Source: Bacillota bacterium
GTDB lineage: Bacteria; Bacillota; Sulfobacillia; JAJZYS01; JAJYTV01
NCBI GenBank assembly: GCA_021847575.1
Contig: JAJZQO010000014.1
Span: 1 to 46,173, forward strand
DNA: 46,173 nt
Direction of reading: 5' to 3'
Positions 40,820-45,155 of the stretch are shown here, piece by piece (within the stretch, counting starts at the first letter, position 1; every line of letters starts with the position of its first letter). The translations under genes and the position numbers were made by a program. The notes beneath the pieces were generated by a model. It was not told where the DNA came from and made no database searches. It saw nothing but the letters and a program-made list of their open reading frames with translations.

Positions 40820-42211
40820 TCACCTCTGTCGCCTCGCATTTCTTCCTCCATTGTGGCCGAACCTGCCCTGCCGGCCTTCAGTCGTGCCCGTGAGCTGCTC
40901 GGCGATCGCCTGTGCCCGGAGTTCGTGCACGCGCGCCCGCCCGGGATCGACGCGGCGCAGTGCCTCGGCCACGAGGCGTTCCGGCAGAGGCGAGCTGCGG
41001 CAGCGGCCGGCGACTTGCAGGGCCTCCTCGAGGTTGTCTTCGGCGAGCAGAAGCTGTGTTTCGAGGAGCGGTCCGTCGGGACGCTGCCTGATGCGCCTGA
41101 GGGTGGCCGCCCGCGATTCCGGCCAGAGGCCCTGGGCCACGGCCGCGCGCCGCGCGGCCAGGAGCTGGGGCGCGCCGCCGGATCGCGCGGCTGCGCGCAG
41201 GCGGAGTCGCACCTGGAGGGTTTTCGGCAGATCGCCCGACGTGGCGATGGCGGACTCGATCGCCTCCGCCTCCTCCGGGGCCATTTGGTCGGCCTCCGTC
41301 AGCAGGCGGACCACCGCCCGGCTCAGGCGCCCCGCGGCGCGCGCAGCGTCCAGATAGGCCGGCAGGGCTCCTCGAAGCGTCGGCAACAGGTCCTCGAGCG
41401 CATGGTACGCCGCGGTAGGCGCCAGGGAGACCGCGTGCGGCGCAAGCCTCGCGAGCGAGGTCAGATCGTTGTCTGCCGTCGCCTGCCACAGGGCACTGAG
41501 CACGAGATGGCGTGAGATGTCAGGCGGCCGAAGCTCCGCGAGCAGTCCGGCGAGCGGCTCGGGCGCCGCGCGCAGCAAGGAGGCCCATTCCGCAGGGGTG
41601 GGCCGATGCTCCGTGAGAGCGGCGGCCAGAAGCGCCTGCATGGCCGCATCGCTCGAGGCCTCCCGCATGGCCCGCAGCAGCAGCGGCAGCCGGTCTGTCG
41701 CAAAGCGCAGGGCGGCGTCCAGCGCGAGAAGGCGCCGGTCGTCCGGCAACGCCCAGATGTCGGCGACGTCCTCCGGTGGCAGGTCCATGGCGCTGACGAA
41801 ATCTACTCCCATGGCGGCGGCGGACAGGGGCGCCCGCGACGGATGCGCGAGGAACCTTTCCACGAGGCGGGCGACGTCGACGACCGGCAGCCTCCGGGCA
41901 TGATACGCCTGGATGACCGCTGCGGCGTGCCGGCAGCGCGGCCGGCCGCAGTCGCAGGCGGACACGGCCGGCAGGTCGAGACCGACCCGCACCCAGTAGT
42001 CGTCGTGCGCGCCCCGCACCCGGCCTGCCAGGGCGCCGCGGTCGCGGCGCAGGTCGAGCACGTGGTCGCCGAGAAGGTAGTCTTCTCCTGCTGCCCAGGC
42101 CCCCGGTGGAAAGGCGGCCTCCCATGCGGAAAGGCCTGGACCGGATAAGTGTTCGATGATGCTGCATCCCCTTCTGCAGGAGTTTGCCGAGATATGTCGG
42201 AAATGCCTCAT
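40820..42211 (-). CDS. SWIM zinc-finger protein
   Basis: 463 residues. The SWIM motif VSACDCGRPRCRHAAAVIQAY (CxC-x4-CxH) lies near residue 85, after a beta-rich stretch (YLLGDHVLDLRRDRGALAGRVRGAHDDYWVRVGLD). The rest is helical and Ala/Leu/Arg-rich, with repeat-like helices. SWIM fingers bind DNA or proteins; bacterial SWIM proteins often sit with SNF2 helicases or nitrilase-like genes, but no helicase is visible here. ATG 42211 has no ribosome site and its first 17 residues look unlike the domain; AAGGGG lies 7 bases before an in-frame ATC (42160), which might be the real start. It is divergent from the nitrilase pair. Confidence 0.8.
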   Translation of the reverse strand: MRHFRHISANSCRRGCSIIEHLSGPGLSAWEAAFPPGAWAAGEDYLLGDHVLDLRRDRGALAGRVRGAHDDYWVRVGLDLPAVSACDCGRPRCRHAAAVIQAYHARRLPVVDVARLVERFLAHPSRAPLSAAAMGVDFVSAMDLPPEDVADIWALPDDRRLLALDAALRFATDRLPLLLRAMREASSDAAMQALLAAALTEHRPTPAEWASLLRAAPEPLAGLLAELRPPDISRHLVLSALWQATADNDLTSLARLAPHAVSLAPTAAYHALEDLLPTLRGALPAYLDAARAAGRLSRAVVRLLTEADQMAPEEAEAIESAIATSGDLPKTLQVRLRLRAAARSGGAPQLLAARRAAVAQGLWPESRAATLRRIRQRPDGPLLETQLLLAEDNLEEALQVAGRCRSSPLPERLVAEALRRVDPGRARVHELRAQAIAEQLTGTTEGRQGRFGHNGGRNARRQR

Positions 42212-42226
42212 GCGGGCTGAAGATTC

Positions 42227-43114
42227 GTGCAAGGAGGGGCAACGCTGGAGCGCGACTTTATCGTAGCGACATTTCGCCTCCCACCGTTCGCCGCGCCCGA
42301 CGCCGCATCCTTTGGCCGCGCGCTGGTGCAGGCGGCGGAGTCTACTGCCCAGCGCACCCCGGCCGACCTCTACCTGTTCCCAGGCCTGCTCGCGCTCGGC
42401 CTCGTCCCGCAGCTCGATCTCGCAGACCCCAAGGCAGTGGCACTCGCGGACGGTTCGCTCAAGGACGCCTACCTTGCCGCGGGCAGCTATGCGGCGCGCA
42501 CGCTCGGAGCTGTCGTCGTGCCGGGCACGATCTACCTTGTGACGCCACAGGACCGCGTCCAGCAATACGCGGCGGTGTTCGATCGCCAAGGCAACCTGGT
42601 CGGTGAGCAACTCCAGACGCACAAGGACGGCACGGTGCAGGCGACGGCGGACGAGATCTCACCGATCGCGGTCGACGCGGGCGTCAAGGTTGGGCTGCTG
42701 CTCGGCCGCGACGCATGGTACCCGGAAGTCAGTCGCATCCTGTCGCTTCAGGGCGCCGACATCCTGTTGGCGCCACTCGCGCCCGGTACACCATATTCGT
42801 CCGAAGAGGCGCTCTGGGGTCTCTGGCAGGAGGTTCAGCAGAACCAGGTCTTCGGCGTCGAGTCGGGGCTGTTCGGCGTGATGGGCGAGCGGGTGTACGC
42901 CGGCCGTGCCGCGATCCTGGCCCCTTGCGAGATGACGGAGGACGAAGCCGGTTTCCTGCCGCGTCCCGGCTACTTTGTCGGAACGGGCGCGCAGGTGGCG
43001 ACGCTGCGCGTCGACGACCTGCAGAAGGTGCGTCGCGACTACCCGCTTCTCCGGCACCTCAACCCCGGGCTCTACCGCAAGTATCTGCCGCTGATATACA
43101 GGAGACAGCCATGA
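42227..43114 (+). CDS. Nitrilase-fold protein lacking catalytic residues
   Basis: 295 residues from GTG 42227. It is a clear paralogue of the next gene (NQVFGVESGLFG vs SQVFGVQGALVG; LNPGLYRKYLPLIY vs LNPALYERYFPRVY). In the carbon-nitrogen hydrolase triad Glu-Lys-Cys, the first Glu is Gly (LFPGL instead of FPE) and the nucleophile Cys is Gly (GLLLGRDAWYPE instead of GxxxCxD); only a Lys (QTHKDG) may remain. It should be inactive. AAGGAGG lies 7 bases before an in-frame CTG at 42245, a better ribosome site than any for GTG 42227. The gene overlaps the active paralogue by 4 bases, suggesting a mixed complex. Confidence 0.85.
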   Translation: MQGGATLERDFIVATFRLPPFAAPDAASFGRALVQAAESTAQRTPADLYLFPGLLALGLVPQLDLADPKAVALADGSLKDAYLAAGSYAARTLGAVVVPGTIYLVTPQDRVQQYAAVFDRQGNLVGEQLQTHKDGTVQATADEISPIAVDAGVKVGLLLGRDAWYPEVSRILSLQGADILLAPLAPGTPYSSEEALWGLWQEVQQNQVFGVESGLFGVMGERVYAGRAAILAPCEMTEDEAGFLPRPGYFVGTGAQVATLRVDDLQKVRRDYPLLRHLNPGLYRKYLPLIYRRQP

Positions 43115-44169
43115 ATCTGCGCGACATCACCCTCCAATTCATGTTGCGCATGCGCTCGCGCCCGGCGCGCGTCGTGCGCCGCCTGCAGCGCCGCGGCTTC
43201 CGCCACAGAGTGCGCACCCCCGAAGTGGGGGTCGTGCGGGCGGCCGCCGTCCAGCTCGAATGGCGCCTCTGCGAGACGGCCGAGGAGTTTGCCGACCTCG
43301 TCTATGACAACGTCCGCGAGGCGGTGGCCCAGGGGGCGGAACTGGTCGCGTTCCCGGAGGACACCGCGACGCTGCTCGTCGGGGTCATGCCGGGCCTCGG
43401 CCCCATGCTGCGCAACCTGACGGTCGACGAGGCCGTGCGCCAGATCGGCGAGGACGTTCAGGTCGCGGAACTCTTCCGCCTGATGGGTGGGGCGACGCGG
43501 CGCATCTACGAGACAACCTTTGCGACGCTGGCGCGGGGCTACGGCGTCCACATCGCCGCGGGCTCCGCCCTGCTGCCGTTGCCGGACCAGCGCGTGCTCA
43601 ACGTCGGCCACCTGTTCACTCCGGAGGGCCGCATACTGCGCCAGGCCAAGTGCCACCTCATCCCGCTCGAGGAGGAGTGGGGCCTGACGGCCGGAGAGGA
43701 TCTCGAGGTCTTCGACACGGGCATCGGCCGCATCGGCCTGCCCGTGTGCATGGACGCCACATTCTTCGAAACCTTCCGCATCCTGCGCCAGCTCGGCGCG
43801 GAGATCGTCGTCCTGCCTATGGCGGACCCCGAGTACCCCTACAGCCCGTGGAAGGCCCTGCGCGGCATCTGGCCACGCGTTCAGGAGTCGCAGGTCTTCG
43901 GCGTGCAGGGAGCGCTCGTCGGCGAGGCGCTCGGCATGCGGCTCACCGGCCATGCCGGCATCTACGCCCCGCTTGCCCTCACCGAGCGCGGGGACGGCAG
44001 GCTTGCGGTTTCGGAACGCCCCGAGGGTGAGGCGCTGGTTGTCGCCGACCTGGATGTGGCCGCCCTGCGCCGATTGCGCGAGGAGCAGCCGCTGCAGCTG
44101 AATCCCGCGCTTTACGAGCGATACTTCCCGCGCGTCTACTCCGGCTTCTGGCGGGGTGGCTCGCATTGA
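43111..44169 (+). CDS. Carbon-nitrogen hydrolase (nitrilase superfamily)
   Basis: 352 residues. The catalytic triad is intact: Glu in VAFPEDTA, Lys in QAKCHLIPLEEEWGL and Cys in IGLPVCMDATFFET. An N-terminal extension of about 40 Arg-rich residues (LRMRSRPARVVRRLQRRGFRHR) precedes the domain. The superfamily cleaves amide or nitrile bonds or transfers amides; the substrate cannot be named. ATG 43111 has GGAGACAGCC upstream and overlaps the pseudo-nitrilase stop by 4 bases (ATGA); the hotdog gene in turn overlaps its stop. Confidence 0.9.
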   Translation: MNLRDITLQFMLRMRSRPARVVRRLQRRGFRHRVRTPEVGVVRAAAVQLEWRLCETAEEFADLVYDNVREAVAQGAELVAFPEDTATLLVGVMPGLGPMLRNLTVDEAVRQIGEDVQVAELFRLMGGATRRIYETTFATLARGYGVHIAAGSALLPLPDQRVLNVGHLFTPEGRILRQAKCHLIPLEEEWGLTAGEDLEVFDTGIGRIGLPVCMDATFFETFRILRQLGAEIVVLPMADPEYPYSPWKALRGIWPRVQESQVFGVQGALVGEALGMRLTGHAGIYAPLALTERGDGRLAVSERPEGEALVVADLDVAALRRLREEQPLQLNPALYERYFPRVYSGFWRGGSH

Positions 44170-44594
44170 GCGGGCAGACCACGTGGCGCGACGACGGACG
44201 CTGCCTGGTCTGCGGCCCCGAGAACGAGCACGGGCTGCACCTGAGCTTCGTGCCGGCACCGCAGGGCGCCAGTGCCGAGGGCGTCGTGCCCGACCACCTG
44301 CAGGGCTTCGCGCGGCGCAGCCATGGCGGCATCGTCTGCGCCATCCTCGACGAGGCGATGTACTATGCCGTGGCGATGCAGGGGATGCCAGGCGTGGCGA
44401 CGGGCGAGATCTCGGTGCGCTACCGCCGTCCCCTGCCGACAGGCGAGCCGTTCCGCGTGGACGCGCAGTGCACGCGCCTGACCGGGCGCTTCGCCAAGAC
44501 CGAAGCCACGCTCCGCTGCGGCGGCGAGATCGTCGCGCAGGCGTCAGGGACCTTCCTTCGCGTTCCGTCGGACATGGAGATCAAGGGGGATTAG
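44166..44594 (+). CDS. Hotdog-fold thioesterase (PaaI-like)
   Basis: 142 residues. RCLVCGPENEHGLHL at the start and HGGIVCAILDEAMYYA (central helix with the catalytic Asp or Glu) followed by TGEISVRYRRPLPTGEPF are typical of the 4HBT/PaaI type. Such enzymes hydrolyse acyl-CoA or related thioesters. TTG 44166 overlaps the nitrilase stop by 4 bases and has GGGGTGG upstream. The CxVCG start motif is shared by a subfamily often annotated as thioesterase of unknown substrate. Confidence 0.85.
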   Translation: MSGQTTWRDDGRCLVCGPENEHGLHLSFVPAPQGASAEGVVPDHLQGFARRSHGGIVCAILDEAMYYAVAMQGMPGVATGEISVRYRRPLPTGEPFRVDAQCTRLTGRFAKTEATLRCGGEIVAQASGTFLRVPSDMEIKGD

Positions 44595-44600
44595 CCCGAA

Positions 44601-45155
44601 TTGGAGAAGACGCGCGCCGAGGCCTTCGCGCTGCTCGGCGAGTACACGAAATCGCCACAACTGATCAAGCACGCGCTTGCCGTTGAGGCGTCGATGCGCC
44701 ACTACGCCGGTCTCAGGGGCGGGGATGCGGAGTACTGGGGCATCACAGGGCTCTTGCACGACATGGACTACGAGATCTACCAGAGCCTTGACGACCACCC
44801 GTACAAGGGCGTCGAGATCCTGCGCCGCGAGGGGTACCCGGAGGACATGCTGCAAGCCATCCTTGGCCACGGCAACCACACGGGCGTCGCCCGCACGACC
44901 GACATGGCGAAGACCCTCTTTGCGGTGGACGAGCTGTCTGGTCTCGTTGTGGCGGTTGCGCTCGTCAGGCCAGACCGGCTCGACGGGCTCGAGGCGAAGT
45001 CTGTGCGCAAGAAGATGAAGGACAAGGCGTTTGCGCGCGGCGTGAACCGGGAGGATATCGTGCAGGGGGCGGAGGAGCTCGGTGTGCCGCTCGACGAGCA
45101 CATCCAGAACGTCATCACCGCCCTGCAGAAGGCGAAGGACGACCTCGACCTCTGA
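44601..45155 (+). CDS. HD-domain hydrolase (COG2316-like)
   Basis: 184 residues. LIKHALAVEASMRHYA and GITGLLHDMDYEIY provide the metal-binding H...HD pair, and ILGHGNHTG adds a His cluster. KSVRKKMKDKAFARGVNREDIVQGAEELGVPLDEHI at the end is typical of the 'predicted HD superfamily hydrolase' group found widely in Bacillota. TTG 44601 follows AAGGGGGA at 10 bases. It comes 6 bases after the hotdog gene. Substrate unknown. Confidence 0.85.
   Translation: MEKTRAEAFALLGEYTKSPQLIKHALAVEASMRHYAGLRGGDAEYWGITGLLHDMDYEIYQSLDDHPYKGVEILRREGYPEDMLQAILGHGNHTGVARTTDMAKTLFAVDELSGLVVAVALVRPDRLDGLEAKSVRKKMKDKAFARGVNREDIVQGAEELGVPLDEHIQNVITALQKAKDDLDL

Follow-up and report, generated by a model that had tools for sequence, protein, structure and literature searches.

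Why would a bacterium keep, directly upstream of an intact carbon-nitrogen hydrolase gene, a related gene whose product has lost its catalytic residues? The question is raised by two overlapping genes, here called A and B, in the stretch of DNA analysed (the window: 46,173 nucleotides, contig JAJZQO010000014.1 of the Bacillota assembly GCA_021847575.1). As the pair is conserved in many distantly related bacteria and is sometimes fused, the dead copy A very probably functions as one half of the enzyme. We consider it highly likely that A and B form a heterodimer built like the common nitrilase dimer, with B as the sole catalytic subunit and A forming or regulating the pocket of B.

One intact and one dead copy in the window

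Both genes matched PF00795 (CN_hydrolase) above the Pfam cut-off of 23.2 bits (A, 50.9 bits, E 1.8e-13; B, 67.8 bits, E 1.3e-18), and A and B share 35% identity over 225 residues (E 2e-26). The two overlapping, related genes described in the initial annotation are both present as open reading frames, joined by an ATGA stop/start overlap (Table 1). The start implied there for gene A, at position 42227, is probably not the one used. The frame does open at this GTG, which would give a protein of 295 residues. However, a GGAGGGG-N5-CTG arrangement is kept at the start of gene A in all nine genomes of the window's family, ATG, GTG and TTG starts are not conserved across these nine, and the frame upstream of the CTG is not kept, with an in-frame TGA just upstream in two of them. 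The conserved ribosome-binding site and CTG, together with the upstream stop codons in relatives, speak against the GTG and favour CTG 42245–42247 as the probable start. Just upstream of the pair, on the minus strand (40820–42160), the window encodes a divergent protein with a weak, sub-cut-off match to a SWIM zinc finger.

Table 1. Positions in the window of the gene pair, its catalytic or replaced residues and the adjoining thioesterase gene.
Feature	Position	Strand	Remark
Ribosome-binding site of gene A, GGAGGGG	42233..42239	+	lies 5 nt before the CTG in 9/9 genomes of the family
Gene A, catalytically dead CN_hydrolase paralogue, 289 aa	42245..43114	+	PF00795 match
A Gly53 (GGC), replacing catalytic Glu	42383..42385	+	motif FPGL
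A Gln130 (CAG), replacing catalytic Lys	42614..42616	+	within family-A motif QxQTH (QLQTH)
A Gly160 (GGC), replacing catalytic Cys	42704..42706	+	motif LLGRD
GLWQEVQQNQ, densest conserved family-A stretch	42818..42847	+	helix in model, after former nucleophile region
ATGA stop/start overlap of A and B	43111..43114	+	
Gene B, intact CN_hydrolase, 352 aa	43111..44169	+	PF00795 match; N-terminal extension of ~40 aa
B Glu83 (GAG), catalytic	43357..43359	+	motif FPED
B Lys180 (AAG), catalytic	43648..43650	+	motif AKCH
B Glu187 (GAG), second Glu	43669..43671	+	motif LE
B Cys213 (TGC), nucleophile	43747..43749	+	motif VCMD
4HBT (PaaI-like) thioesterase, TTG start overlapping the B stop by 4 bases	44166..44594	+	PF03061

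The nitrilase triad plus the second glutamate is complete in B (Glu83-Lys180-Glu187-Cys213), and the Glu, Lys and Cys that the initial annotation had assigned to B were confirmed by alignment at positions 83, 180 and 213. For A, the same annotation had listed glycine in place of both Glu and Cys. These two replacements stand, but the list was short, as the catalytic lysine has also been lost, to Gln130. The alignment revealed no Glu or Cys elsewhere in A that could replace the lost residues. The two segments that had been described as conserved, NQVFGV and LNPxLYxxYxP, are present in both proteins or nearly so (A, LNPGLYRKYLPLIY; B, LNPALYERYFPRVY). Judged from its residues, A is a non-catalytic homologue within the superfamily, not a nitrilase, and is unable to catalyse by the known nitrilase mechanism. 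All 21 family-A members that were scanned matched PF00795, and no domain besides CN_hydrolase was found in A. Neither protein reached the cut-off of 410.25 bits for N-carbamoylputrescine amidase (TIGR03381; A, 32.5 bits; B, 39.7 bits), nor did B, at 62 bits, reach that of 500 for the archaeal-type nitrilase NF040852.

This division between the two copies extends across the families. None of 92 A sequences has an intact triad: Glu is kept in one, Lys in one and Cys in three, and the usual replacements are Ala or Gly for Glu, Gln for Lys, and Gly or Ser for Cys. Among 89 B sequences, 88 of them readable, Lys and Cys occur in 88/88 and Glu in 87. Outside this B set, two loci of the window's order (L018, 2366–3484; L019, 425–1492) carry B copies in which Cys has been replaced by Thr or Ser, so that both partners look dead there. 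The A halves of three fusions (L149, L150 and L152) keep Cys (AICEDAWYPE or similar) though not Glu or Lys, and are perhaps an intermediate or a reversion. Selenocysteine was considered for B of several relatives and rejected, because the TGA within the match is the normal stop at the domain end.

Conservation, fusion and selection across genomes

Scanning named genome contigs with the family-A profile, which finds only A-containing loci, yielded 56 loci. In 52 of these, A is followed directly by B as a separate gene on the same strand, A always being first, and in 31 of the 52 the stop of A and the start of B overlap by four bases. A single-frame A-B fusion accounts for one further locus (L047), two loci end at the contig edge (L071 and L075), and one contains A without B (L090). 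The pair proposed in the initial annotation is thus conserved in relatives, with A directly upstream of or fused to B in 53 of the 54 testable loci. Most loci belong to uncultured Bacillota; Atribacterota, Spirochaetales and Hakubella are also represented, as is the complete chromosome of Petroclostridium sp. X23. The labels Desulfovibrio and Nitrosymbiomonas on metagenome-assembled genomes look doubtful, as these entries fall inside Bacillota groups in the tree. A minus-strand "neighbour" recurring in 42 loci was discarded, since we took it to be antisense frames of the pair itself.

Whole-genome searches likewise recovered A in relatives, again adjacent to B. When 398 genomes were drawn evenly from the phylum, 89 had A-profile matches at E 1e-30; in most of these 89 two matches lie side by side, and among the weakest matches are ordinary CN hydrolases. 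Strong B matches inspected within the class, 12 of them from families f10 and f43, had an A-like ORF immediately upstream. In these two families A is shortened and mostly lacks QTH, yet it still adjoins B. In genomes of f10 (L114–L118, L121, L123, L132 and L133), a very degenerate short A-like ORF with an A1 score of 31–54 bits sits just upstream of an intact B. A search of plasmids with A returned only one weak relative.

When eight other CN hydrolases were included in the tree as outgroup, A formed one clade (support 100) and B another (84). The two are paralogues and probably arose by an ancient duplication; as the root position is weak, A and B may or may not be exact sister clades. Pairwise divergence of A correlates with that of B (r 0.93, 49 pairs), which shared species ancestry alone would also give, and A evolves ~1.45 times faster than B. 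Within two genera dN/dS was 0.05–0.17 for A and 0.05–0.27 for B; both ranges denote purifying selection. Fused genes, in which A always precedes B, are present in groups f30, f48, f96 and f105. These groups are separated in the tree, so fusion probably happened independently at least three times.

The proposed heterodimer and its alternatives

The invariant residues of family A are Gln128, Asp162, Trp200, Val203-Gln-Gln-Asn206, Pro233, Gly242 and Tyr283. Its densest conserved stretch, GLWQEVQQNQ, is modelled as a helix that we take to lie on the "A surface", where superfamily monomers pair.

AlphaFold2 predicted the natural fusion of L047 (675 aa) with a pTM of 0.89 and a mean pLDDT of 87, the segment under pLDDT 50 being the linker. 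For a pair of a different lineage whose genes are not fused (L067), with the separating stop read as a residue, the pTM was 0.85. For two domains of similar size, these values mean that the relative placement is confidently predicted, with the proviso that both models, made from relatives of the window's pair, consist of covalently joined domains and that AlphaFold2 may dock any joined nitrilase domains in a homodimer-like way. The input alignment was anchored on a natural fusion and on read-through pairs. Both halves of the L047 model match solved nitrilase-superfamily proteins (Z about 29), the A half reaching Z 29 to the Nesterenkonia amidase; the B half of this relative thus has the expected alpha-beta-beta-alpha fold.

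Members of the superfamily pair across the A surface (PMC4700190), and in N-carbamoylputrescine amidohydrolase neighbouring subunits line the entrance to the pocket and exchange their C-terminal arms (PMC4812014). A dead paralogue in the partner position would thus have a direct way to shape or control the pocket of B. We infer that A and B are two subunits of one amidase-type enzyme, an obligate heterodimer in which B, with its retained Glu-Lys-Cys machinery, would do the chemistry and A would be needed for B to be active. A, its machinery lost, would stand in for the second protomer of the standard alpha-beta-beta-alpha dimer. There it would most likely wall the pocket entrance and swap its C-terminal arm, like the neighbours in homo-oligomeric relatives, and would thereby fix the fold, pocket shape or activity of B. 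The hetero-oligomer with a dead partner that the initial annotation had suggested is supported by linkage, fusions, purifying selection, congruent divergence and the docking predicted in two models.

Other accounts of A have to be weighed against the same data. A could be a separate enzyme that carries out a new reaction in the same pathway, through Gln128, Gln130, Asp162, Glu212 and Glu235, and forms no complex with B. It does have invariant polar residues of its own, some near the former active site, and the linkage of the genes would equally fit two enzymes of one pathway. We nevertheless think this very improbable, because the nucleophile, the base and the lysine have all given way to neutral or small residues that differ among lineages, because A stays next to B in f10 and f43 even where it is shortened and mostly without QTH, and because fusions and docking fit one unit better. 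The neutralised catalytic charges and the still conserved pocket region would also suit a ligand-binding sensor that acts alone or contacts something else, leaving B as an ordinary homodimeric amidase. Against this stand the fixed order, the overlapping genes and the repeated fusion to B, the peak of conservation in the helix that should lie at the dimer surface, and the lack of any other domain in A, which together make such a sensor very improbable. Barely credible is the view of A as a decaying duplicate without function. The lost catalytic residues and the faster rate of A are in keeping with it, but the low dN/dS indicates that A is not a decaying pseudogene, its frames are intact, and its motifs and position are conserved across phyla; as far as sequence can do so, the selection and conservation data refute it.

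Within the preferred reading, that of a heterodimer with B as its only catalytic subunit, the former active-site pocket of A may have a purely structural role or may accommodate a ligand. In a more specific version, which we offer tentatively and regard as rather unlikely, the vacated pocket (Gly, Gln, Gly) of an obligate heterodimeric amidase binds a substrate-like ligand and thereby switches B on or off, in the course of glycoside breakdown by uncultured anaerobes. If true, this would be an allosteric site derived from a former active site, and the first such heteromer in the nitrilase superfamily.

Genomic context and relation to known systems

The neighbourhood of the pair points to a possible role. 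Within flanks of up to 6 kb, 22 of the 56 loci have a GH125-like glycosidase (PF06824), 21 encode a GPH-type sugar symporter and six another MFS transporter; 34 loci contain at least one of these. In Atribacterota the order on one strand is glycosidase, A, B, symporter. The GH125-like family (L051, 3674–5662; L083, 4118–5911; and 20 more loci) has a long N-terminal part and is well conserved, at a mean column identity of 40%. Its profile matches solved GH125 structures, and its match to PF06824 (E 2.9e-19) spans only part of the domain; two members scanned against NCBIfam gave no match. The known enzymes to which these neighbours are related are the GH125 exo-alpha-1,6-mannosidases, with the reservation that the PF06824 match is partial. 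Among 154 genomes of the class, 30 have both glycosidase and pair, 18 only the pair, two only the glycosidase and 104 neither, the lists being compiled manually from the search results and the co-occurrence test taking no account of ancestry.

As the GH125-like glycosidase and the GPH symporter lie nearby, the enzyme probably serves the breakdown of an imported glycoside with an amide or nitrile in many lineages. The window's order has the pair and lacks the glycosidase; at E 1e-20 the window's own genome gave no match to it. Here the pair is adjoined instead by a 4HBT thioesterase, which recurs in 11 loci, so that the substrate may differ in this order. The thioesterase gene is followed by that of an HD-domain protein (44166–45155 together), and both recur beside the pair in the window's relatives.

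Described nitrilase homo-oligomers, such as N-carbamoylputrescine amidohydrolase, PaNit/PH0642 and the Nesterenkonia amidase, have the same fold and Pfam family as the pair, share Glu-Lys-Glu-Cys with B and would have the same dimer unit. However, they consist of like subunits, whereas here the second protomer would be a separate, dead paralogue. A superfamily paralogue with a changed catalytic Cys (C387S) is also known in mycobacteria, the Lnt homologue BCG_2279c, for which a "contributive role" has been suggested (PMC3850990). Unlike A, this protein belongs to the membrane acyltransferase branch and has only the Cys changed, and it is not known to form a complex with the active Lnt. Similar in the way they work are the trypanosomatid AdoMetDC-prozyme (PMC5201418) and deoxyhypusine synthase (DHS; PMC3663545), in which a dead paralogue hetero-oligomerises with the live enzyme and activates it. 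As with A and B, the dead paralogue is conserved together with its active partner, but the folds are unrelated, the organisms are eukaryotic, and activation was measured there and is only inferred for A and B. The initial annotation had known of no described pair of this kind in the superfamily, and we likewise found no publication on a conserved dead/active pair in the open-licence literature.

Functional members of the nitrilase superfamily have been described as dimers of like subunits. A conserved dead partner, present in several phyla and repeatedly fused to the active copy, would add a pseudoenzyme-based heteromer to this superfamily and would make it possible to ask experimentally why each dimer lost one of its active sites. 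Automatic annotation names both genes carbon-nitrogen hydrolases, though A cannot catalyse by the known mechanism. The pair and its neighbours further point to a pathway, so far uncharacterised, of subsurface bacteria and others that are little cultured, comprising a GH125-like glycosidase, a GPH symporter and what is probably a heteromeric amidase.
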